37,426 bases of DNA. Source: Opitutia bacterium (GTDB taxonomy: Bacteria; Verrucomicrobiota; Verrucomicrobiia; Opitutales; Opitutaceae). A program made the translations under genes and the position numbers. The stretch lies in contig CANJCM010000047.1 in assembly GCA_947472765.1 (NCBI GenBank), positions 1 to 37,426 of the forward strand, given 5' to 3'. Below, one piece after another: positions 3,745 through 16,923 of this stretch. Position 1 is the first letter of the stretch. The number at the start of each line of letters is the position of its first letter. Under the pieces are notes generated by a model. The model was not told where the DNA came from. It did not search any database and worked only from the letters and a program-made list of their open reading frames with translations.

Positions 3745-4023
3745 TCAGCTGTCCTCGAGCTTGACGTTCCGGGCCTGCAGGAACGGCACGAGTTCCTCCG
3801 TGCCGAAGTCAGCAAGAATCTTTCCGTTCCAGTCGAGCGTCGGCGCCCGCGTCTGGCCGGACTTGCGCTTGAGCTCTTCAAACGCGGCGGCATCGCGGCT
3901 GACGTCGCGCAGCCGGTAGCTGACGCCGTGGCCATCGAGAAACTTCACCGCCTCCGTGCACCAGGGGCAGCCTTCTTTCGTGTAGAGGATGGGGAGGTTT
4001 TCGGCGGGAGTGGGATCGGCCAT
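3745..4023 (-). CDS. Glutaredoxin-family thiol-disulfide protein
   Basis: A 92-residue thioredoxin-fold protein with the active-site motif C19-P-W-C22 after the first beta strand (LYTKEGCPWC). A cis-proline-type segment RAPTL is at about 59-63, and a C-terminal FGTEEL helix resembles the usual glutathione-binding GGYxxL region. It would reduce protein disulfides or mixed disulfides in the cytoplasm. I preferred the ATG at 4023. A GTG at 4059 would add 12 residues with no family resemblance, and neither start has a clear ribosome-binding site. The gene ends in a phrase-like repeat and is divergent from the aldose epimerase 113 bases away. Nearby genes suggest no specific partner. Confidence 0.85.
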   Translation of the reverse strand: MADPTPAENLPILYTKEGCPWCTEAVKFLDGHGVSYRLRDVSRDAAAFEELKRKSGQTRAPTLDWNGKILADFGTEELVPFLQARNVKLEDS

Positions 4024-4136
4024 GGGAAAATGGTGCGGGCGCAACGGGCTTTGTTCCACGCCAAAGCAATCCCGGTGCGGCCACCCGATCGACCGCGACT
4101 CGCCTTCGTCCCGCCAGTCCTTTCACTGCGGGCTCC

Positions 4137-5264: not shown

Positions 5265-7550
5265 ATGTTTCCCCTGTTCTCCCTGTTTCGCGGCGTGGTC
5301 GGGCGCCGGCTGCGCTGGGCGCTTGGATCTTACGGCATCGTTTTCGCACTCTGCGCCGGTGAAACCCTTCTGAGCGGCTGCCGCCGGCCCGCGAACACGG
5401 CCCCAGTGACGGCGACGGCGGCGGCCGCACCTGGACGGAAGACCGAGCCGGCCGCGGCGAAGTCCGCCGACTGTCGCGCCTGCCACCAAGCCGCCTATGA
5501 CGCGTGGGCCGGATCACATCACGCCCACGCCCATCGCCCGGTGGATGCCACCACCGATGCGGTGGCATTCAAATCGCGCGAGATGAAAGTCGAAGCCGTG
5601 GACTACACCGTCGGCTGGAAGGAAGGGCACGCGGAGTTCAGCGAACGGCGCGACCCGGCGGCCCCGGTGAATGCGAGCGTTGAGTTTGTGCTCGGACACA
5701 CCCCGCTGCGGCAGTTCGTCGTTCCGGTCGGGGGCGGGCGTTATCAGATGACCGAACTCGCCTTCGATCCGGCGAAGGAGGAATGGTTCAACGTCTTCGG
5801 CTACGAGCAGCGGCAGCCGGGCGAATGGGGCCACTGGCAGGGTCGCGGCATGAACTGGAACTCGATGTGCGCCCACTGCCACCTCACCCAGTTCACCAAG
5901 AACTATCAGCCGTCGACCGACACCTACGCCTCGACCTGGAGTGAACACGGCGTCGGCTGCGCCCAGTGCCACGACCTCCCGGCGAATCATGCCCAGCCGG
6001 GAAAAGTGCGGACCGCCCTCACCGGCACGGAACTGGCGCAGACCCGCCAGCGGGCGCAGGAGACCTGTGCGCCGTGCCATGCGCGCAATGAACTGCTCAC
6101 CGGCAACGTGCGGCCGGGCGTCCCCTACCCGGATCATTATCGCCTGACTCTGCCCACTGAGCCCGGCGTGTTTTACGCCGACGGCCAGATGCGCGATGAG
6201 GACTTCAATACGACTTCGCTCCTGCTCAGCCGGATGGGCGGCAAGGCCCATGTCACCTGCCTCGATTGCCACGAGCCCCACAGCGGCCGGCCGCGGTTGC
6301 CGGTCGAGAACAACGCTCTGTGCCTCCAATGCCATGGCAGCACCTCAGTCCGCGCGGACGCGCCGCGAATTGATCCCACCGCTCATTCGCACCACGCGGC
6401 CGACAGCACGGGCAATCGCTGCGTTTCGTGCCACATGCCGACGACGACCTTCATGCAGCGGGATCCGCGGCACGACCATGGTTTCACGAAGCCTGATCCG
6501 CTGCTGACGAAGGAGCTCTCGATTCCCAATGCGTGCAGCCGCTGCCACACCGATCGCGACGTCGACTGGGCAGTGGCCGCGGCGGATCGCTGGTACGGCG
6601 CGAAGCTGGACTCGCGCCAGCGGGAACGGGCCCGGGCGGTCGCGGCGGCCCAGACACTAGCACCGGAAGCGGGACCGCGGTTGTTGAAATTATTGGAGAC
6701 GGAAGACGTGCCGGCGTGGCGCGCTTCCTTGTTGCTGCTGACCCGGCCGTACGCCGCCCAGTCACCCGCGGTCGTCGTCGCCGCGCGGCAGGCCCTCGCC
6801 CACTCGGACCCGCTCGTGCGCTCCGCCGCGGTGCAGGTGCTGGGCGGCCTCAACGAGCAGCGCGAACAGGTGCGGCCACTGCTGCGGGATGCCACGCGTC
6901 TCGTGCGACTCGACGCGGCCTGGGCCCTGTCCGATCAGCTCCCTCCCGACTCGAACGAGCGCCGCGAGTTGGACACATATCTCGCAGTGATGGCGGATCA
7001 ACCAGCGGGCCAGTTGCGGATCGCACAGGATTTCTTCAATCGCGGCCGGCTCACGGAAGCCGAGGCGAGCCTGCGGCTTGCGGCCACCTGGGATCCGAAT
7101 GCGGCCGGAATTTTTTCGACGTTGGGGACCGTGCTGAATGCCGCAGGTCGCGACGAGGACTCGGCGGCGGCGTTCTGGCGGGCAGCCCAAAAGGATCCCA
7201 CGGATGCCGGCGCGGCGTTCAGCGCGGGCCTGGCCTTTGCCGCGGCCGGCAAGCTGCCGGACTCCGAACTCGCATTGCGGGAGGCGACCCGGCGGGATCC
7301 GCGTCACGACCGGGCGTGGTACAACCTCGGACTGATCTTCGCGCAGACCGGCCGGCCGGCCGAGGCGATTCGCGCCTTGGAAACGGCGGAAACGAGTGCG
7401 CCCGCGGTGGCCGACTATCCCTATGCGAGGGCGACGATTCTACTCAACCGCGGCGATCGCGCCGGCGGCACGGCGGCCGTACGACGCACGCTGGAAATTG
7501 ATCCCGCCCACGCGGAAGCCACCGCGTTACTGAGGCGGCTCGGGAATTAG
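5265..7550 (+). CDS. Octahaem c-type cytochrome lipoprotein with HEAT/TPR-like repeats
   Basis: A 761-residue exported multihaem protein. Residues 1-39 hold a hydrophobic segment and a lipobox-like LLSGC with C39, suggesting lipid anchoring. Eight CXXCH haem-binding motifs follow, with the first cysteine at C70, C202, C232, C268, C332, C353, C386 and C424, and many extra histidines that could be distal ligands. Residues about 450-570 look HEAT-like (LVRSAAVQVLGGL, LVRLDAAWALSDQL). Residues about 585-760 form TPR-like repeats (AGIFSTLGTVLNAAGRDEDS, AWYNLGLIFAQTGRPAEA). Similar cytochrome-c554-type plus TPR proteins exist in Planctomycetes and Verrucomicrobia, mostly unassigned. It likely passes electrons in the periplasm, with the repeats binding a partner. 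No enzyme subunit is adjacent, so the reaction is unknown. There is no Shine-Dalgarno before the ATG. Confidence 0.85.
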   Translation: MFPLFSLFRGVVGRRLRWALGSYGIVFALCAGETLLSGCRRPANTAPVTATAAAAPGRKTEPAAAKSADCRACHQAAYDAWAGSHHAHAHRPVDATTDAVAFKSREMKVEAVDYTVGWKEGHAEFSERRDPAAPVNASVEFVLGHTPLRQFVVPVGGGRYQMTELAFDPAKEEWFNVFGYEQRQPGEWGHWQGRGMNWNSMCAHCHLTQFTKNYQPSTDTYASTWSEHGVGCAQCHDLPANHAQPGKVRTALTGTELAQTRQRAQETCAPCHARNELLTGNVRPGVPYPDHYRLTLPTEPGVFYADGQMRDEDFNTTSLLLSRMGGKAHVTCLDCHEPHSGRPRLPVENNALCLQCHGSTSVRADAPRIDPTAHSHHAADSTGNRCVSCHMPTTTFMQRDPRHDHGFTKPDPLLTKELSIPNACSRCHTDRDVDWAVAAADRWYGAKLDSRQRERARAVAAAQTLAPEAGPRLLKLLETEDVPAWRASLLLLTRPYAAQSPAVVVAARQALAHSDPLVRSAAVQVLGGLNEQREQVRPLLRDATRLVRLDAAWALSDQLPPDSNERRELDTYLAVMADQPAGQLRIAQDFFNRGRLTEAEASLRLAATWDPNAAGIFSTLGTVLNAAGRDEDSAAAFWRAAQKDPTDAGAAFSAGLAFAAAGKLPDSELALREATRRDPRHDRAWYNLGLIFAQTGRPAEAIRALETAETSAPAVADYPYARATILLNRGDRAGGTAAVRRTLEIDPAHAEATALLRRLGN

Positions 7551-8007: not shown

Positions 8008-11000
8008 TCAAACCCGCCGGCGCCGGATGGTCCAGCCGACCACGCCGAGTCCCAGCACGAGCAGCGCGTAGGTCGACGGCTCGGGTACGACGGTCGGATC
8101 GAAGTTCAGCACCAGGCTCATATTTCCCGGTGAGCCACCGAGACTGAAGTTGAAGCCTTTTAACCCCGACGAGAACGAGTTTTCGAAGTTGCAGGTGTCG
8201 ATGGCGAACTGCGCGGATCCGGTGAAGCCCGTGATACTGGTGGCAGAGAGCACGGTCCAGGATCCGGGCTTGGTCCCATCGAAGTTCAGCGCCAGGCCGC
8301 CCTCGCCGTCGCTGCCGAGGGAGATAATCTTGAAATCGAAGGGTGCGAGGTTCGTCGCGGAAATGTTCACGGTGCCCTGCACCACGATTTGGTCCCACCC
8401 GGTCGCACTATTGGCCGCGTCACGGATTTCCCAGTTGAAGCCGCCGCCGGGCCCGAGATTGAGCGTGTTGCTCACCCCGAGGAGGCTGCCGTCGAAGGAC
8501 AGCGTCCCAACGCTGAGGCCCGGGGCCAGCACGACCTGATGCTCGCCGTCTCCGCCAATGTTGAGCGTGCCGGAGGGCTTGAACGTGCCGGTGCCGCCCA
8601 GCGCGCCGTCCTCCAGTGCGAGGCTGTTTGCCACCGTAACACCTGCATCGACCGCCAGCACGCCGCCGTGCAGCGTCACGACATTCGTGCTCGGACCGAA
8701 GGCGTTGTTGTGACCGGCGACGACCGTGGCGCCACTGATGAGCGTGGTACCGACGTAGCCCGAACTGTCGCCGTTCAAGCGGAGTTTGCTGCCGAAACCT
8801 TGAAACACGAGCGCTCCCCCCGTGCTGGCGAACTGCCCGTCATAGTGGGAATCGTCCGATTGGTAGACCGTGAGGGTCGTGCCATTGCCCAACGTGATGA
8901 GGTCGGAGGCATTATCACCGAAGAGGCCGTTGACGGTGGCACTGACCGAGAACGCGACGGACGGAGCCATCGCCGTGCCCATCCGCAGCGGGCCGGAGCC
9001 GAGTGCATTCGGGTGGGCGACGTTGATGCTGCCTTGGGCAATATAGAAGCCGCCGGAAAAGGACGAATTGTCGCCGCTGAGTGTCACCGCGAAATTGCCG
9101 GTCTTGTAAATTTCAGCGTAGCCGGAAATTGCTCCCGCCAGCGTAAAGGCGTTCGAACCTCCGAGGATCAGGTTACTATGGACAGCGAGAGCGTTGGGAA
9201 GGGTGAGACCGGAATTTGCCGCCGCGAGCACGGGCGCGTCATAATACACATCGTAATCGTAGAGTGACGAATACTCGCTGTTCACCGTCAGGGTTCCGGT
9301 GCCCAGCGCAGTATTACTCCCAAACATCAGCCGGCCGGCGGAAAGCTTCGTCCCGCCCGTGTAGGTGTTGTTACCACTCAGGGTGACGCTGGAAAGCGGG
9401 CCGTTGAAATCGATGGGCGAACGGTGCGTGACCGGAGAATACCTTTCACCGATGGCCACCGAATTCGCACCGCCGAGTGGGGTCGTCACGGTCAACTGCC
9501 CACCCTTGTAACCGGCGAAGCGATACTCGGTCTGGCCGATCGGCAGGGTGATGGCCGTGACCCCAATCGTGGCACTGGTGGCGGTCCCGAGATACACGTT
9601 CGCTCCGGAATTGAGCCCGCTCAGATCGAGTGTGCCGCCGACTGCATAGGTGCCGGTGAAGGAATCGAAGCCAATCGTCCCCGAATGGGCGTAGTTGCTG
9701 AAGCGGCCGATGAGCGACTGCGCCCCAGTCGGTCCGGCATCCTCGGTGCCGATATAACCCATGCCCGACATTAGGAGTGAACCCGTGGCCGGCATGGATC
9801 CGCTCTTGAAAATCACGGCGGAAGAGTGGACTTCCGTGCCGGAGGAACCGGAATAGGTATTGGTGCCGCCGAGCCGCAGCGTGAGCGGCGTACGGGAGTC
9901 CGACTGGACGAGCAGCGAGCGGGGACTGGTACCATCCACGAGCGACGAATTCACTTCCAGCAAGCCACCGCCGCCACCAAACCGGTAGACATCGCCCTGC
10001 GGCGTAATCGTCGCCGTCGCCGACAGAATGGCCCGGGTCGCCGAACCCAAGCGAACGCTGGATTGAAAGCCGGTGGCAGGGCCGGCTCCATCCGGATCGC
10101 CAAGGTTGATCGTGCCGTTGAAGGTGTTGGCCGGATCGGTCAGCGGCCCGTCGAAGCCAATCGCGCCCGTGGTGTTGCTCTTGTTGAACTTGCTGAGGAA
10201 GTCGTTTTGGATGTTCCCGGGAACGAATCCGATTCCGATGTAGCCATCGTTGTACGAGGTCAGGCTGCTCGAACCCGGCAGCGAGCCGGTATTCGTAAAG
10301 ATGATGTTTCCATAACCGGCGCGGGTTCCGCCACTGTAGGAGTTGGTGCCACTGAGGAAAACACTCTGGAATGCTTCGACGGTCAAACGGCCCGACCCGG
10401 TGATATCGCCGTTCAGGAACAGTGGTCCGGACGTGGGCGAGAACGCGACGCTGCTGTTCAGCTGCACCGCGCCATTGATCGTCAGGCTGCCGTGGCCGTA
10501 GATCGGGAGATAGTCGTCGGAAAACATGTTTACGACGAGGTTGTTGGCGATGACTCGCGAACCGTTGGCGACCGCGAGCGAAATCGAGGAGCCTTCCCCC
10601 TCGATCGGTTGGAGGGTCAGAGCGCCGGTCCCCAGCGCGGTATCACTGCCGAGGGTCAGCCGACCGTAATTGAGGAACGTCCCCCCGGAATACGAACTCG
10701 AGCCGGAGAGGACGGTGTCGCCCCAGAGATCGAGGCTGCCGGCGCTACCGCCGTGATCACTAATGGCTCCTTTCAGAACGATCCCGTTGTATTCAGAGTA
10801 GCCCTCGCCGAGGATGCTGAGGACGCCAAAATCGTCGAACGAGAAGTTGCCGATTTTCAATTTCCGGCCGATCGAAATGAGGTTGTGGAGCGTCAGTCCA
10901 TAAGCGTCGCTCAATTCCCGGAGCACCGGCTCCACGGCGGAGGCGGGAACCGTCAGCGGACCCGTGCCGAGCGGGCCGGAACGGATGGAGCCATTAGCGT

Positions 11001-14000
11001 TCAAGAGGGTGTTGTCGGCCAACGCGAGGTTGCCGCTGAGCAGCGTCGTGCCGCCGGTGTAGGTGCTGGCACCGAGCAATTCCACCCCGCCATCGCCCAG
11101 GATGTGCGAATCCGATCCGACTTCGACGCGCGTGACGTCCCCGGCGGCGAGTGGTGAGCTGACGGTCAAGTCGCCGCCGGCTCCGATCAACGAGAGGGTG
11201 CGATCCGCGCCCGACTGGTTCGGGGCCTGAATCCGGCCCGTCAGCGAGGCCCCGGAGGTCGTGCCGAGATAGATGCGGCCGAAAGCACTGAGATCGATCG
11301 GCCCGGACTCAATCCGGCTGCCCGGCCAGCTCGATTCATTCCCGAGGTGTGCGTCAATGGAGCCGCTAGAGTCGAAGCCAATCACGGAACTGGCCGTGTA
11401 GGCTGAAATCCGGTTGAGGAAGCTGGCAACCGTGGGAGCCTGGCTGAGTGCGAACGGCTCCGTGTATCCTACATAACCATTCGTCCCGAGTGAAATCATC
11501 CGCCCGGCGGGCAACGCGCTGGCCGAGTCGAGGATCGCGAGCGAGTTGGTGACGCTGAAGTTTCCTGTGTAGGAATTGTTTCCCATGAAGATCACCAGCA
11601 AGGCGTTGTCCGGGATGGCGCCAGACGAGGTGACCGTGGTGCTCTTGCTGCCGCCGACATCGGTCAGGTTGCTGCGGACCACGAGGGCTCCGCCGCCGTT
11701 GCCAAACGCGTAACCCGTCGCGGGCGGCGTAATCGTGCCCGAAAGGATGGCCGCAGAGATCGAGCCAATGGTGAAACCGGCCCCAAAACCCGAAAAGTCG
11801 ATCGGAGCAGAGAAATTATAGGGCCGGGGCAATCGATCCACGTCCGAGTCAAAGCCGAACGTGCCCGCAAAGGCCGTCTTGTCGGCCGGGCTGATCCGGG
11901 CAAGGAGCGCCGCCGCGGTGGGGACATCGGACAGCGACCCCACGCCCACGCTCACGTAACCCTGGTTCACGACCTTCACGGCCGCCGTGTTGGTGAGCGT
12001 GGTGGGGGAACCGAAGATCACCGCGGAATGATCCGCCGTGACGCTCGCAAGATTGCCGCCAAGCGAACCGGTCAGGAAGATGAGCCCCCGCTGCGCCGAC
12101 GCGCCGCTGTCGAAGGTCAGTGCCGTCGCCGGGGCGGCGCCGTTCAGCGCGCCGGAGATCTGCACGCCCGAGTCACCCTTGAGATGCACGGTCGTCGCAA
12201 GGTCCGCCACCGTGACCGCACCGGCGAGTTCGAGCGAGCGGCCGCCCTGGGAATCACTCACGCCGAGGGTGACGTTGTTCGCCAGCGACACCGGGTTGTA
12301 AATCTGCACGTCGCTGTCGGAGGATCCGTAGGCATTGTGCAGGTTGGCGGCGCCCAAGATCGTTCCGGACTGAAGCGTCAGCGAACCAGTGCCAATCGGG
12401 CCGCCACCAACTGAACTGCCGTCCATGTAACCACTGCCACCGAGCAGGAGGGTGCCGGCCGAAACGGTGGTGCCGCCGCTGAAATTGCCAGACGCCGCCA
12501 GCACGAGCGTTCCGCTGCCCAGCTTCATGATTCCGCCATCGGTGATATCGGAGTAGATCGTGAGCTCGCGATCCGTGGAGGCGGAGTTCCCGATGTTGAA
12601 GTTTCGCGTGCCCTCGTTGAGGTCGAGCGTGCCGCCATACGGATAACCGCCGTCGAACACATCGTACGCAGAGAGCGTCGCCCCCTGGGGATTATTGGTC
12701 GCGTTGTAGGTGAGATCGCCGGAAAGGAAGAGCGTGCCGCTGGAACCGAGAAGCACCTGATTGCTGGCGAAGCCGCTCGCCCCGATTCCGCCAAAAATCA
12801 GGCTGCCGATCGACTGCCGCGTATTGGCAACGTTCAACGTCGTGGAACCGCCGTTGGTGTCGTTGACGGTAATATCGCGTCCACCGGGAAGAGTATCGTT
12901 GCTGCCCAGTGTCAGTTTGCCGCCGTTCACGAACGTACTCCCAGTGTAGGTGTTGGCACCGAATAGGTACCAGGTTCCGAATCCGGTTTTGCGCACAGTC
13001 GTGGTATTGGTCGGCGAATTATCGCTGATGATGCCGGAGAAGGTACCCGTGCCGTTGCTGCTGCCCGAAAGGGTGAGCGTCTTGCTGCCAGCGCCGCTCG
13101 CAATAAGATCGCCGGTGAATTCAACCGAGCCACTTCCGCCGACAGCCAGCATCGCACCTCCGGTGGTACCGGCCAGCTCGATCGGTCGATCTGTTGCAGT
13201 GTAGCTGCTCCCGGAATAGCTCAGCGTGGCACCGGTCGTGCCGCTGCCGATGGCGATCCGGCCGTCTCCGCCCAAGCCATCGCCGAGCGAGGAGTTGGAA
13301 TCGATCCAGTTGAGCGAGGCGACCGCCAGAATACCGTTCTCGATTACGACCGGGCCGGAGAACGAGCTGTTGTTGGCATTCAATACGACCGAGCCGACCC
13401 CACGTTTGATGATTCCGCCGTTACCGGAAATCGTGCCGTTGAAGGTGATGCTGTCACTACGGTTGAAGATCAGCGTGCCGTCATTCGAGACAGAACCATT
13501 GATCGAACCGGAGGTGCCGCCGTTGCCGAGACTGAGGGCACCGGATGAAATCGTGGTGCCGTTGTAATTATTGCTGCCGGTCAGCGTCAGTAACCCGGCG
13601 CCCATTTGCTGCAAACCGCCGCCGCCGCTGAGGTTGGTGGCAATCGTCACGTCATCGCTGCGATTGAAGGCCAGCGTGCCGCTCGAGATCGTGATTGCGC
13701 CGGTCAGGTTGCCGGTGGTGCCGCCGTCGCCGACCTGAAGGGTGCCGCCGCTGATCGTGGTTCCGCCGGTGTGCGAGGCCGTTCCCGTGAGAACCAGCGT
13801 GCCGGTCCCAAACTTGGAGAGGGAGTTCGTGCCGGTGAGGTTGGAACTAACGGCAAATTCCGCGGCCGTGCCGGTGGAGTTGTTGATCGTGAACGAGCGG
13901 GGCGAAGATCCGAGATTGACCGTTCCGCCGAAGATTCCAGCACTCCCCGTCGGATTACCGGTGGCGTCGAACGTGAGATTACCCGTCAGGTTGAGCGTGC

Positions 14001-16740
14001 CGGCACCGATCATGATCCTGGGAGTCGAGTCGCTGACCGAACCCGCACCGCCGAAGGTCAAATTGCCCACGGTTTGGGTGTGCCCGTTCAATTCCAGCGT
14101 CCCGCCCACGCCTGACGTTGAGAGCACCTGGAGGTTGGTCGCCGAAGGCAGCGCCTGGTCGACGCCCAATTGGAGCCAGCCCTCGCTGACAATCGTGCCC
14201 CCGGTGTAAGTGTTGTTTCCGTTGAGAAGAAGCGCACCCCTGCCAGACTTCGTGAACGCCCCTGTCCCCGTCATGATGCCGCCGTAGGTCAACGTCCTCT
14301 CGGAGTTGGGACTGATCTTGCCGCCGCCGGCCTCAAGCAAAATTCCCCGATTGGCGTTGAGCGTCATCGTCAGCGTCGTGACCAAGGTGCCGCCGTTGAA
14401 CGTCAGCTTGCCGGGAGTAGCTGCCTCAGGCACGGCGCCGAGCTTCGCGTCGCTGTTGATGTAAACCGATCCGCCGTTGAGGGACGTTTTGCCGGTGTAG
14501 AGCTGGTTGAAGGAAATCTCGACGCTGCTGGCGAAAGATTTAACGAAGTCGCCGGGGCCGGAAATCACGCCGCTGAACGTCGCGTAGTCGGACGACGAAA
14601 GGTGGCTGTAGTTGATCGTCCCATTGTTGGTGATGTTGCCGCTGATGTCGCCCGAATCGGAGCCGCCGCCGATCGAAAGCGTGGCCCCCGCGAGAATCGT
14701 CGTCCCGCCGGTGTGCCCGAGCGGGTTGCCGCTCACGGAAAAATTGCGGGTCGTTCCATCACCGAAAGTGAACCCACCGGCGCCGGAACTGCCGCTTTGG
14801 ATGGCACCGCCGGTGGTCAGGGTCAGCGTGCCCGCACCAAGCGTCAGGCTGCTCGTGTTGCCCGTATTGAGCGTCGCGATCGTCTGGCTGGCCTGGACGT
14901 TCAAAGCCGCGCCTCCCCCGACCGTGACCGTCGTGCCGGCCGGAAGCACATTCGCCGCCCCCAATCGCAACGTTCCACCCGAGACCGCGGTCGACCCCGT
15001 GTAAGTGCTCGAACCGGTCAAAATCAGCGTGCCGGATCCGACCTTGGTCAGGCTGCGCGCGCCGCCGCTTTCACCAATCGTACCGGAGAGCGTCAGCGTA
15101 TCCGAAACCCCGATGCCGGTGTTGGCGGCCAGCGTGATGTTGCCGGCGAGCGAGGCGGCGCCACTCGAGGTCAGCGCCCCGGTGCTGCTGAGTCCGAATC
15201 CGGCCAGGGTTACCGGTTCCGAACCGACGCTGACGCCATTGAGTTCCAGCGCGCCTCCAGAAGTCACATTGGTCGCACCGGCCGTCGTCCCGAGGGCCGA
15301 GGCATGCGAGGCCCGGAGCGTCCCGCCACTGTCGATACTGAGCGCGCCAGAGAACGTGTTCGCGCCGCCGAGTTCCAAAACGCCATTGCCGGCCTTCACG
15401 ATCGGCCCGGTACCGGCGACGATGCCGTCGATTTTCAACGCGGTTCCGGTGGCCACCGCGAACGCACCGCCGCCGGCGTTGATGGCGATCCCTCGATTCG
15501 CTCCGACCGTCAGGTCGGCGGTCGAGGAGAGCGTGCCGCCGTTGAACGTGATGTTTCCCGCCGTCGGTGAACCCGGGTAGGCCCCCAAGTTAGCATCCTG
15601 CGCCACGGAAAGCGTACCGGTGTTAAAGACCACGCCGCCGGTGAAGGTGTTCACGCCGGAAAGCGCGACGGTCCCGGCATTGTAAATCGTCAGGGGACCA
15701 GTGCCGCTGATCACGCCACCGAACGCTAGCACCGTGCCGCCAGCCGCGCTCAGCCCGCCGCCCGAGCCTGCCAGGGTGATGCTGCGGGTCGTGCTGATCG
15801 GGAAAGTGGCCGTGGAAATCAGTACGCCACTGTTGAGCGTCACGGCACCGGTCGAGGCGCCGAGGTTGGCATCGGCGCTCACGGAAATCTGGCCGGCATT
15901 CACCGACAGCCCGCCGGTGAACGTGTTCGTCCCGCTCAGCGTGAGCGCGCCGCCGCCGCTCTTGATCAGCGGGCCGGTGCCGTCGATCACCCCACCATAA
16001 GTCAGCGTCGTACTGGGCGCCGGGCTGATCATGCCGCCGCCGGCGAGGAGCGAAATTCCGCGATTGGAATTGAGCGTGAACGAGGCGGTCGTGGACAGCG
16101 AACCGCCGTTGAAAGTCAGGCTGCCCGCCGTGGGAGTCGCCGGCGTGAATCCGAGATTGGCGTCGGCGGAGATCGACGTGACACCCGCATTGAAAGTCGT
16201 ACCGCCGGCGTAGGCGTTCGTTCCGGAGAGCGTGAGCGTGCCGGAGCCAGCCTTCGTCAGGCGGGAACTGGTGCCGGCCTCAAAAACGTGGGCGGCCACG
16301 ACCAGGTTTCCCGCGCCGACATTCCAAGTCTGGTTCGCCGCGAGCCCGATCTGCATTCCGGCTTGGAATGTCACAGGGGTCGCACCGCCACTCCCGATGG
16401 TCAGACCGCCGGCAGCCAGTCGAAGCTGCGGCGCCGGTAGCGTGGTCGACGAAAAAACATACGCCGGAAACGCGCCCGTCAGCGTCAGGGAATCCGCGGC
16501 AAAGTTGGCCGAAATGGCCACGCTTGAAACCCCGGAGCTGCCGAAGACCAGAGCGCTGCCCGTCGTGGGTGCACCGCCCCCTTCGCTCGTCCAGTTTCCC
16601 GCCGTCTCAAAGACCGAGGTAACTGCTGGGTCCGAACCCGTACTCCACGTAAACGTCGTCGGCGTGATGAGCACCGCCCGCGCACTCACCGCGATCAGGA
16701 AGAAACCGGTAATAACGCAGCGCTGGAGCCAGGCGATCAT
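8008..16740 (-). CDS. Giant PATR (autotransporter-associated beta-strand repeat) protein with PEP-CTERM anchor
   Basis: A 2910-residue secreted protein made almost wholly of glycine/serine/threonine-rich beta-strand repeats. I count roughly 18-20 repeats with cores such as LTLSGTNAYAGGTT, LSGNNTYTGGTK and LTGSNNYNG. Such repeats form a right-handed beta-helix passenger. The N-terminus MIAWLQRCVITGFFLIAVSARA is a signal peptide. The C-terminus (about 2885-2910) is a PEP-CTERM sorting signal: VPEP, a hydrophobic stretch (TYALLVLGLGVVGWTI), then RRRR. PEP-CTERM proteins are processed by exosortase and tied to the envelope or exopolysaccharide. There is no autotransporter beta-barrel, unlike classic type V proteins with these repeats. 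I chose the ATG at 16740; the frame opens to 16830, but that would bury the signal peptide. It is likely a surface or matrix protein. The ligand is unknown and no exosortase is visible. Confidence 0.9.
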   Translation of the reverse strand: MIAWLQRCVITGFFLIAVSARAVLITPTTFTWSTGSDPAVTSVFETAGNWTSEGGGAPTTGSALVFGSSGVSSVAISANFAADSLTLTGAFPAYVFSSTTLPAPQLRLAAGGLTIGSGGATPVTFQAGMQIGLAANQTWNVGAGNLVVAAHVFEAGTSSRLTKAGSGTLTLSGTNAYAGGTTFNAGVTSISADANLGFTPATPTAGSLTFNGGSLSTTASFTLNSNRGISLLAGGGMISPAPSTTLTYGGVIDGTGPLIKSGGGALTLSGTNTFTGGLSVNAGQISVSADANLGASTGAVTLNSGVLISTATFPISTTRSITLAGSGGGLSAAGGTVLAFGGVISGTGPLTIYNAGTVALSGVNTFTGGVVFNTGTLSVAQDANLGAYPGSPTAGNITFNGGTLSSTADLTVGANRGIAINAGGGAFAVATGTALKIDGIVAGTGPIVKAGNGVLELGGANTFSGALSIDSGGTLRASHASALGTTAGATNVTSGGALELNGVSVGSEPVTLAGFGLSSTGALTSSGAASLAGNITLAANTGIGVSDTLTLSGTIGESGGARSLTKVGSGTLILTGSSTYTGSTAVSGGTLRLGAANVLPAGTTVTVGGGAALNVQASQTIATLNTGNTSSLTLGAGTLTLTTGGAIQSGSSGAGGFTFGDGTTRNFSVSGNPLGHTGGTTILAGATLSIGGGSDSGDISGNITNNGTINYSHLSSSDYATFSGVISGPGDFVKSFASSVEISFNQLYTGKTSLNGGSVYINSDAKLGAVPEAATPGKLTFNGGTLVTTLTMTLNANRGILLEAGGGKISPNSERTLTYGGIMTGTGAFTKSGRGALLLNGNNTYTGGTIVSEGWLQLGVDQALPSATNLQVLSTSGVGGTLELNGHTQTVGNLTFGGAGSVSDSTPRIMIGAGTLNLTGNLTFDATGNPTGSAGIFGGTVNLGSSPRSFTINNSTGTAAEFAVSSNLTGTNSLSKFGTGTLVLTGTASHTGGTTISGGTLQVGDGGTTGNLTGAITISSGTLAFNRSDDVTIATNLSGGGGLQQMGAGLLTLTGSNNYNGTTISSGALSLGNGGTSGSINGSVSNDGTLIFNRSDSITFNGTISGNGGIIKRGVGSVVLNANNSSFSGPVVIENGILAVASLNWIDSNSSLGDGLGGDGRIAIGSGTTGATLSYSGSSYTATDRPIELAGTTGGAMLAVGGSGSVEFTGDLIASGAGSKTLTLSGSSNGTGTFSGIISDNSPTNTTTVRKTGFGTWYLFGANTYTGSTFVNGGKLTLGSNDTLPGGRDITVNDTNGGSTTLNVANTRQSIGSLIFGGIGASGFASNQVLLGSSGTLFLSGDLTYNATNNPQGATLSAYDVFDGGYPYGGTLDLNEGTRNFNIGNSASTDRELTIYSDITDGGIMKLGSGTLVLAASGNFSGGTTVSAGTLLLGGSGYMDGSSVGGGPIGTGSLTLQSGTILGAANLHNAYGSSDSDVQIYNPVSLANNVTLGVSDSQGGRSLELAGAVTVADLATTVHLKGDSGVQISGALNGAAPATALTFDSGASAQRGLIFLTGSLGGNLASVTADHSAVIFGSPTTLTNTAAVKVVNQGYVSVGVGSLSDVPTAAALLARISPADKTAFAGTFGFDSDVDRLPRPYNFSAPIDFSGFGAGFTIGSISAAILSGTITPPATGYAFGNGGGALVVRSNLTDVGGSKSTTVTSSGAIPDNALLVIFMGNNSYTGNFSVTNSLAILDSASALPAGRMISLGTNGYVGYTEPFALSQAPTVASFLNRISAYTASSVIGFDSSGSIDAHLGNESSWPGSRIESGPIDLSAFGRIYLGTTSGASLTGRIQAPNQSGADRTLSLIGAGGDLTVSSPLAAGDVTRVEVGSDSHILGDGGVELLGASTYTGGTTLLSGNLALADNTLLNANGSIRSGPLGTGPLTVPASAVEPVLRELSDAYGLTLHNLISIGRKLKIGNFSFDDFGVLSILGEGYSEYNGIVLKGAISDHGGSAGSLDLWGDTVLSGSSSYSGGTFLNYGRLTLGSDTALGTGALTLQPIEGEGSSISLAVANGSRVIANNLVVNMFSDDYLPIYGHGSLTINGAVQLNSSVAFSPTSGPLFLNGDITGSGRLTVEAFQSVFLSGTNSYSGGTRAGYGNIIFTNTGSLPGSSSLTSYNDGYIGIGFVPGNIQNDFLSKFNKSNTTGAIGFDGPLTDPANTFNGTINLGDPDGAGPATGFQSSVRLGSATRAILSATATITPQGDVYRFGGGGGLLEVNSSLVDGTSPRSLLVQSDSRTPLTLRLGGTNTYSGSSGTEVHSSAVIFKSGSMPATGSLLMSGMGYIGTEDAGPTGAQSLIGRFSNYAHSGTIGFDSFTGTYAVGGTLDLSGLNSGANVYLGTATSATIGVTAITLPIGQTEYRFAGYKGGQLTVTTPLGGANSVAIGERYSPVTHRSPIDFNGPLSSVTLSGNNTYTGGTKLSAGRLMFGSNTALGTGTLTVNSEYSSLYDYDVYYDAPVLAAANSGLTLPNALAVHSNLILGGSNAFTLAGAISGYAEIYKTGNFAVTLSGDNSSFSGGFYIAQGSINVAHPNALGSGPLRMGTAMAPSVAFSVSATVNGLFGDNASDLITLGNGTTLTVYQSDDSHYDGQFASTGGALVFQGFGSKLRLNGDSSGYVGTTLISGATVVAGHNNAFGPSTNVVTLHGGVLAVDAGVTVANSLALEDGALGGTGTFKPSGTLNIGGDGEHQVVLAPGLSVGTLSFDGSLLGVSNTLNLGPGGGFNWEIRDAANSATGWDQIVVQGTVNISATNLAPFDFKIISLGSDGEGGLALNFDGTKPGSWTVLSATSITGFTGSAQFAIDTCNFENSFSSGLKGFNFSLGGSPGNMSLVLNFDPTVVPEPSTYALLVLGLGVVGWTIRRRRV

Positions 16741-16923
16741 GGGAATGATTCTGTGCAAATTATTGGCACCGACAAGGGAAAAGCCTGATCGGACGTAGAG
16801 ATATGCCGAGGGGGAATCACGTAGACTCACGTCGGAACACGCCTCCGGCCCGGCCTCCTGGAAGCGGCCTTCTGTGTGCCCCCTGCAGTTCGGGTGGCAG
16901 CCAATTCCCCCACCCTCCGCCGC
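16741..16923. promoter_or_regulatory. Upstream region of the giant PATR gene
   Basis: This 183-base gap lies between the PATR start and the stop of the SDR gene, both on the minus strand. The PATR promoter should be here. An AT-rich patch (CCAATAATTT on the minus strand, near 16757-16766) could hold a -10 element, but I cannot pair it with a well-spaced -35 box. No Shine-Dalgarno precedes the ATG. I see no repeat of the families found elsewhere. Confidence 0.3.

Follow-up and report, generated by a model that had tools for sequence, protein, structure and literature searches.

An octahaem cytochrome with an OcwA/MccA-type haem domain and a fused helical-repeat tail in an Opitutia bacterium

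The window analyzed here is positions 1 to 37,426 of contig CANJCM010000047.1 of an Opitutia bacterium (assembly GCA_947472765.1), and our subject is a gene within it whose 761-residue product carries eight CXXCH haem motifs followed by about 310 residues of helical repeats. Structure modeling and profile searches place its haem domain in the fold superfamily of OcwA, MccA, cytochrome c554, and NrfA, with c554 brought in by sequence only. The fold is known, and the whole protein is a new combination in the data examined; no published description of an octahaem-HEAT/TPR fusion was found in the literature searched, which lay mostly outside subscription journals. We consider it an even bet that the product is a lipid-anchored cell-envelope cytochrome of the OcwA/MccA type, fused to a HEAT-TPR solenoid and equipped with a working site at haem 2. 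An earlier note on this DNA had located the reading frame and counted its eight motifs and roughly 300 residues of repeats, all of which were borne out. Its proposal of a new redox hub is not supported as it stands: the haem domain has the OcwA and MccA fold and offers a single candidate site for a substrate, and members of the family are already in public records under names such as "tetratricopeptide repeat protein," "multiheme c-type cytochrome," or "cytochrome c3 family protein." Statements credited below to published work on these cytochromes refer to the accessible parts of the papers.

Fold and haem order of the cytochrome domain

A chance origin of the eight motifs was rejected: 20,000 shuffles of the same protein yielded a mean of 0.0145 CXXCH motifs and a maximum of 1. 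After residue 39, the only cysteines are the 16 of the haem motifs. Because a search with the full-length model returned TPR proteins only, the haem domain was modeled by itself, with 87 relatives and with haems not included, giving a predicted local distance difference test (pLDDT) score of 93.2 and a predicted template modeling (pTM) score of 0.89. In VIA-align comparisons, this model matched OcwA with a Z score of 21.7 (327 residues, 3.2 Å), the undecahaem S-layer cytochrome of Carboxydothermus ferrireducens (PDB 6qvm) with 13.9, and MccA with 10.2 and 9.6, all well over unrelated rows, which reached 6.0 at most; NrfA scored 6.8 and 6.6, and octahaem nitrite reductase no more than 6.0. A profile of 87 relatives covered the whole haem domain when set against OcwA, in two stretches with an expect value (E) of 1e-26, and further matches were obtained for 6qvm (1.4e-19), 6r2q (4e-12), c554 (3e-9), NrfA (2e-6), and MccA (0.0047). 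Neither hydroxylamine oxidoreductase (HAO) nor octahaem tetrathionate reductase (OTR) was among the fold matches listed, and HAO was also absent from the profile matches listed. The comparison with c554 and HAO-like folds that the earlier note had suggested was useful, as both the c554 profile match and a Pfam C554 match over cut-off attest. Clear orthology to a characterized enzyme, which that note had named as the finding that would refute it, did not emerge from family-model and profile searches.

In the profile alignment, the eight motifs pair with OcwA haems 1 to 4 and 6 to 9, and the OcwA CLKCH motif, haem 5 by count, is passed over. There is no cysteine between haems 4 and 5 of the window protein (residues 272 to 332), and the same is true of 98 of 103 rows. 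Together with the beta-rich stretch after haem 1, these features are consistent with a haem order of the MccA type. In OcwA, haems 1 to 4 superpose on c554 and haems 5 to 9 on NrfA, while haems 1 to 4 plus 6 to 9 superpose on the haems of MccA; an extra beta-sheet domain is common to OcwA and MccA, and c554, OcwA, and MccA all use haem 2 as their active site (PMC6703420). The match to OcwA haems 1 to 4 and 6 to 9 and the MccA arrangement thus make haem 2 the candidate active site.

If the protein works in this way, its eight closely packed haems would form a wire in the MccA order. Electrons would come in from other periplasmic multihaem cytochromes, pass along the wire, and be spent at haem 2, the putative reactive site, on a small or surface-bound oxidant, with E312, S322, and M324 lining the far side of that haem. 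The solenoid would replace most of the C-terminal helix bundle of NrfA and OcwA and would hold a partner or substrate protein. In this scheme, we infer the reactivity of haem 2, the direction of electron flow, and the docking role of the repeats.

Conserved residues around haem 2

Conservation was assessed in an alignment of 87 rows picked by BLAST and by the presence of eight CXXCH motifs, which are therefore there partly by selection. G307, E312, and S322 are invariant in all 87 rows, and position 324 is Met in 83, Cys in 3, and Lys in 1. The spaced motif G-[QR]-x3-E-x9-S-x-[MC], which aligns with the His-His pair over OcwA haem 2, is exact in 81 of the 87; it is found in 102 of 103 rows of another set, a biased figure, since the filter that picked those rows already included some of the motif. 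The three Cys-324 rows are long-branched paralogues from three genus genomes (L018:8577-11003, L020:8794-11280, and L021:8963-11299), in which H339 is also missing.

Outside the haem motifs, the conserved histidines in the 87 rows are H86 (87), H190 (79), H291 (72), H339 (83), H374 (87), H377 (84), and H405 (87); H242, whose column is misaligned in this set, is conserved in 86 of 98 rows of a second alignment. In 63 of 87 rows, a His stands six residues beyond the His of haem 3; other rows have it one or two positions further on, and it is replaced in an Akkermansiaceae/Haloferula group. Three loci from Akkermansiaceae or Akkermansia (L089, L091, and L075) encode proteins without H377 and the His after haem 3 and with cysteines near both; co-variation or a disulfide is possible there. 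The conserved non-motif histidines could serve nearly every haem, so that sequence alone fits an open or a closed haem 2.

Several observations weigh against a working haem 2 site in an OcwA/MccA-type protein. The OcwA pair HH281/282, which lies above OcwA haem 2, aligns with R323-M324 (assuming a numbering offset of 29), and this His-His pair is not kept. M324 could itself ligate and close haem 2, and H190 is a possible further ligand as judged from the alignment. H374 (positions 6384 to 6386) is invariant, yet it aligns with the residue over OcwA haem 5, a haem that is missing here. The conserved family motif is not that of a named enzyme. With Foldseek alone, only OcwA gave E <0.001, and MccA gave 0.054.

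It is possible, though somewhat unlikely, that the protein is a pure electron relay. In that case Met324, or the Cys that one paralogue group has in its place, would close haem 2, every haem would be six-coordinate, and the solenoid would hold the partners. Both Met and Cys, the residues at position 324 in 83 and 3 of the 87 rows, are sulfur donors, the conserved non-motif histidines (up to eight) are nearly enough to close all haems, and haem 9 of OcwA is His-Met ligated in the published descriptions accessible to us. The same body of work has haem 2 open in three characterized structural relatives, however, and with E312 and S322 invariant next to M324, the region resembles a pocket more than a simple ligand site. 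We retain a working haem 2 as the preferred reading and put forward, tentatively and as a proposal short of an even chance, that the protein represents a distinct octahaem reductase class with a haem 2 Glu-Ser-Met/Cys pocket unseen in known enzymes and a solenoid that replaces most of the helix bundle for protein docking. As part of the same tentative proposal, this class would span at least Verrucomicrobiota, Planctomycetota, Pseudomonadota, Bacteroidota, and relatives.

Central steps in the cycling of nitrogen, sulfur, and metals depend on octahaem and related cytochromes, whose characterized branches are each defined by the active-site haem. The branch described here is universal in the one genus sampled, common in the phylum, and present on symbiosis-related rhizobial plasmids, yet databases file it as a generic cytochrome or by its repeat tail. 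If haem 2 works, genome annotation is overlooking an entire class of reactions, respiratory or detoxifying; if it does not, the family shows the scaffold turned into a pure wire with a docking arm.

Protein layout, distribution, and gene neighborhood

The reading frame opens with ATG and closes with TAG, and its features are collected in Table 1.

Table 1. Features of the octahaem cytochrome gene, in window coordinates
Feature	Residues	Position	Strand	Basis
Whole gene: octahaem c-type cytochrome with HEAT/TPR tail	761 aa	5265..7550	+	Open reading frame; orthologues in genus
Predicted signal peptide and lipobox LSGC	1-39	5265..5381	+	Sequence; Cys kept in 16/21 sequences
Haem 1 motif CRACH	70-74	5472..5486	+	CXXCH motif
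Beta-rich insert between haems 1 and 2	~90-176	5532..5792	+	Models; extra beta-sheet domain in OcwA/MccA (PMC6703420, accessible part)
Haem 2 motif CAHCH, candidate active-site haem	202-206	5868..5882	+	Motif; correspondence with OcwA haem 2
Haem 3 motif CAQCH	232-236	5958..5972	+	CXXCH motif
Haem 4 motif CAPCH	268-272	6066..6080	+	CXXCH motif
Family motif DGQxxxE-x9-SxM, proposed haem 2 distal pocket	306-324	6180..6236	+	Conservation in the 87-row alignment
Haem 5 motif CLDCH (OcwA haem 6)	332-336	6258..6272	+	Motif; profile alignment
Haem 6 motif CLQCH (OcwA haem 7)	353-357	6321..6335	+	Motif; profile alignment
Haem 7 motif CVSCH, then Met-Pro (OcwA haem 8)	386-392	6420..6434	+	Motif; profile alignment
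Haem 8 motif CSRCH (OcwA haem 9)	424-428	6534..6548	+	Motif; profile alignment
HEAT-like helical repeats	~451-576	6615..6992	+	HEAT_2 under cut-off; helices in model
TPR repeats	~580-760	7002..7544	+	Pfam TPR families over cut-off; model matches solved TPR proteins

At the N terminus, a basic and then a hydrophobic stretch precede the lipobox (residues 36 to 39), whose Cys, in the same column or one off, is found in 16 of 21 sequences of a smaller set. The protein is probably lipid-anchored and exposed to the periplasm, as the earlier note had predicted; a loose lipobox test was passed by 57 of 112 family rows, so that the anchor is a trait of some members.

Six Pfam TPR families (TPR_16, TPR_2, TPR_17, TPR_11, TPR_1, and TPR_8) exceed their cut-offs at about residues 585 to 755, and the full-length model matches solved TPR proteins with Z scores up to 21.8. 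The HEAT half of the tail claimed previously is less secure, with HEAT_2 (residues 508 to 558) at 25.5 bits against a Pfam cut-off of 27.7 and HEAT at 17.9 against 23.5; in the AlphaFold model, residues 433 to 760 form an unbroken run of helices, paired in the HEAT part. Such a tail is fit for docking, and docking itself would be its expected role. In 108 of 112 rows, the tail beyond haem 8 is 240 residues or longer, and the four shorter ones stop at contig ends. A very improbable alternative is that the TPR tail serves as the protein's own maturation chaperone and recruits a haem lyase, a task that the separate TPR proteins NrfG, CcmI, and SirG perform for NrfA and SirA. The TPRs of NrfG and CcmI bind the NrfA C terminus (PMC12285233), CcmI and SirG serve SirA (PMC6976685), and TPR_CcmH_CycH gives a weak match to the window protein (28.5 bits against a cut-off of 42). 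General TPR models score far higher, however, the HEAT part would be left over, and eight standard CXXCH motifs should need no special lyase.

The gene is present in all 27 genomes of the genus; the 26 others carry near full-length orthologues (61 to 72% identity), one of them cut by a contig end. The haem profile has a match at E ≤1e-50 in 91 of the 387 genomes sampled across Verrucomicrobiota. A one-genome-per-species scan gave at least 566 confirmed relatives among at least 591 pattern matches, and the phyla represented in 80 of these relatives include Planctomycetota, Myxococcota, Bacteroidota, Balneolota, Pseudomonadota, and, as a metagenome-assembled genome, Chlamydiae. The cultured verrucomicrobia Haloferula luteola and Cerasicoccus maritimus each have a relative. 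Eight CXXCH motifs are found in 75 of 80 genome loci not selected for motif number; of the five with fewer, four are at contig ends and L094 looks frame-broken. Relatives also occur in 150 plasmid records, with Rhizobium (64) and Sinorhizobium (60) as the main sources; in 121 records the match extends over 80% or more of the query. A viral origin was rejected, as viral contigs gave 2 pattern matches, neither of them a relative. A quick tree built from 91 haem domains places the window protein inside a verrucomicrobial group, beside its genus neighbor in genome G004 (support 96); a second group contains 28 rows from many phyla, and the three long-branched paralogues also stand apart from the group of the window protein.

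At the locus itself, galM precedes the gene on the same strand, its end 69 bp away. It is the immediate upstream neighbor in 10 of the 17 genus genomes in which the locus was examined and adjoins the gene at none of the other-genus loci checked, and this restriction to the genus leads us to read it as lineage synteny and not as an operon partner. About 1.2 kb upstream lies a glutaredoxin-like open reading frame (ORF), so named by eye (3745-4059, minus strand). On the downstream side, a 2,940-residue ORF (8008-16830) occupies the opposite strand, its 3' end 457 bp from the gene; by eye, it is rich in Gly/Ser/Thr repeats and ends in a PEP-CTERM-like tail (VPEPSTYALL...RRRRV), as in a large secreted autotransporter-like protein. 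No respiratory oxidoreductase or cytochrome-assembly gene adjoins the window gene, in agreement with the earlier note. Its description of the protein as self-contained and without a partner stands for this locus only, since an arylsulfatase gene, often together with one for a HAD hydrolase, is found close to many of the proteobacterial relatives, and the host has other multihaem cytochromes.

A first clustering of neighbors mostly recovered synteny within the genus, antisense ORFs, and generic sulfatases, and it was set aside. Among the 84 mechanically chosen ORFs nearest to the gene at 48 verrucomicrobial loci (6 of 54 loci were dropped, the motif filter having missed the focal gene), no Pfam family occurred more than twice. 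Arylsulfatase and HAD hydrolase genes lay repeatedly near the plasmid relatives at the loci opened, which were 11 of the 150 records, chosen by hand and including two without annotation. In the non-verrucomicrobial clade, a related sulfatase (at least 35% identity to the sulfatases of these cassettes) was found within the flank covered in 13 of 28 rows and a HAD gene also in 10, counts that are inflated by rhizobial near-copies and hand-chosen loci, from which three query sets were drawn. The sulfatase-bearing rows come from rhizobia, Roseibium, Alloyangia, Pseudoalteromonas, Vibrio, and relatives of Rhodocyclales. Sulfatase and HAD genes occur together at the plasmid loci L113, L115, L116, L117, L119, and L121, and less tightly at L118, L120, L123, L098, L099, and L111; a predicted outer-membrane "transporter" sometimes joins these loci in Pseudomonadota. 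The neighbor of the Sinorhizobium meliloti relative is presumably the arylsulfatase SMa1683. In the accessible part of one study, SMa1683 is listed as 5-fold down in a tolC mutant (PMC2912261).

These loci raise the improbable alternative that the cytochrome is a redox accessory of sulfated-compound metabolism whose working partners are a HAD hydrolase and an arylsulfatase in the periplasm. The 13 and 10 of 28 clade rows are the evidence for this alternative. Several of the hand-chosen plasmid records are near-copies, however; the sulfatase at L114 is of another subfamily, and the genes at L098, L099, and L120 are several kilobases off. In addition, 14 of the 28 rows are without a sulfatase (some on short contigs), sulfatase matches in Verrucomicrobiota are scattered and at 25 to 37% identity, no neighbor family recurs among the 84 ORFs beyond two occurrences, and no sulfatase adjoins the window gene. 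We take the linkage as a lead for the non-verrucomicrobial clade and not for the window.

The host genome encodes possible electron partners at other loci. These include a DmsE-family decahaem cytochrome over cut-off (L138) and, below cut-off, an MtrA-like cytochrome with seven motifs (L136) and a c7/QrcA-like cytochrome; two Cytochrom_C_asm proteins are also encoded there. None of these multihaem or assembly genes is linked to the window gene, and the other multihaem cytochromes could exchange electrons with its product. The MtrA-like gene ends 11 bp before a 679-residue ORF that resembles a beta barrel and has no match in Pfam, NCBIfam, or solved structures, and a possible porin-cytochrome conduit in the genus is suggested by this pair. 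MtrA-like matches with E <1e-60 are found in 23 of the 27 genus genomes, and matches of any strength in 25. At the same locus (L136:2360-5190, in G000:C68), the strand opposite the MtrA/DmsE-like gene and the 679-residue ORF carries a DsrO-like Fe-S protein and another multihaem cytochrome.

In view of such a pair, the protein might be a terminal reductase of extracellular electron transfer served by an MtrA/MtrB-like conduit, as proposed for OcwA and the Carboxydothermus cytochrome, which we regard as unlikely. Its nearest folds are cell-surface reductases, and the host has the decahaem cytochrome and the MtrA-like/barrel-like pair, with MtrA-like matches widespread in the genus. However, the conduit-type genes are unlinked to the window gene, the barrel-like ORF is without a family or structure match, and relatives occur in rhizobia and Flavobacterium, which are not familiar as metal respirers. 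NrfHA was rejected as a partner: strong NrfA matches (E <1e-120) occur in 3 of the 27 genus genomes, NapC/NrfH matches lie beside them in the same three, and other matches are short, weak, or the octahaem protein itself. With the window gene in 27 of 27 genomes and strong NrfA in 3 of 27, the gene is not an accessory of NrfA.

Comparison with known systems

The closest relative by profile and fold is OcwA, the nonahaem cell-wall terminal reductase of Thermincola potens (PDB 6i5b). Both proteins have a beta insert after haem 1, and a CxxCHMP motif stands at haem 8 of OcwA and at haem 7 of the window protein. OcwA differs in its ninth haem (haem 5, between haems 4 and 6), in two open haems with His-His pairs as far as the published account was accessible, and in a C-terminal helix bundle, whereas the window protein has HEAT-TPR repeats. 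A high-spin EPR signal near g 6 has been reported for OcwA.

The octahaem sulfite reductase MccA/SirA (PDB 4rkm) shares the haem number, the extra beta domain, and the fold (Z 10.2), with a haem order that corresponds as far as the alignment shows, although the sequence match is weak. MccA is not known to have a solenoid. MccA-type enzymes bear an atypical CX15CH or CX12NKGCH haem motif (PMC6976685), which is not found in the window protein, where all eight motifs are CXXCH and there is no spare cysteine pair. The Carboxydothermus cytochrome 6qvm (OmhA, as read from PMC7829351) follows OcwA in both profile and fold scores and differs in having eleven haems and in being a Gram-positive surface protein; no HEAT-TPR tail was seen in the match. 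Cytochrome c554 (PDB 1bvb) is alike in the first-haem region (positions 4 to 50) and differs in being a small, soluble protein with four haems.

NrfA and octahaem nitrite reductase give weaker fold matches (Z 6.8 and 6.0) and have the CxxCHMP motif in common with the window protein. The active-site haem motif of NrfA is CXXCK, CXXCH variants also being mentioned (PMC12285233); in the window protein, CXXCK is missing, and beyond the eight CXXCH motifs there is no further haem cysteine pair. Under NrfA models, it scores 11.2 bits against a cut-off of 24.1 (PF02335) and 14.3 against 692.5 (TIGR03152), and PF02335 is over cut-off in some genus orthologues, such as that of G003 (26.1 bits). The OTR model TIGR04315 was not matched at E up to 1; K212, conserved in 92 of 98 rows, is a candidate only for an OTR-like Lys haem ligand. 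HAO is marked by its fold and by a P460 cross-linked haem, and the accessible literature describes it as lacking the OcwA-type haem 2, for which the window protein has a counterpart by alignment. The protein belongs to the fold superfamily, yet traits that define NrfA, MccA, and OcwA are missing from it, and it does not match the OTR model. A published tree contains function-unassigned octahaem cytochromes of Proteobacteria and Bacteroidetes (PMC7829351), with the same haem number and overlapping phyla, and these may be members of the same family as the window protein.

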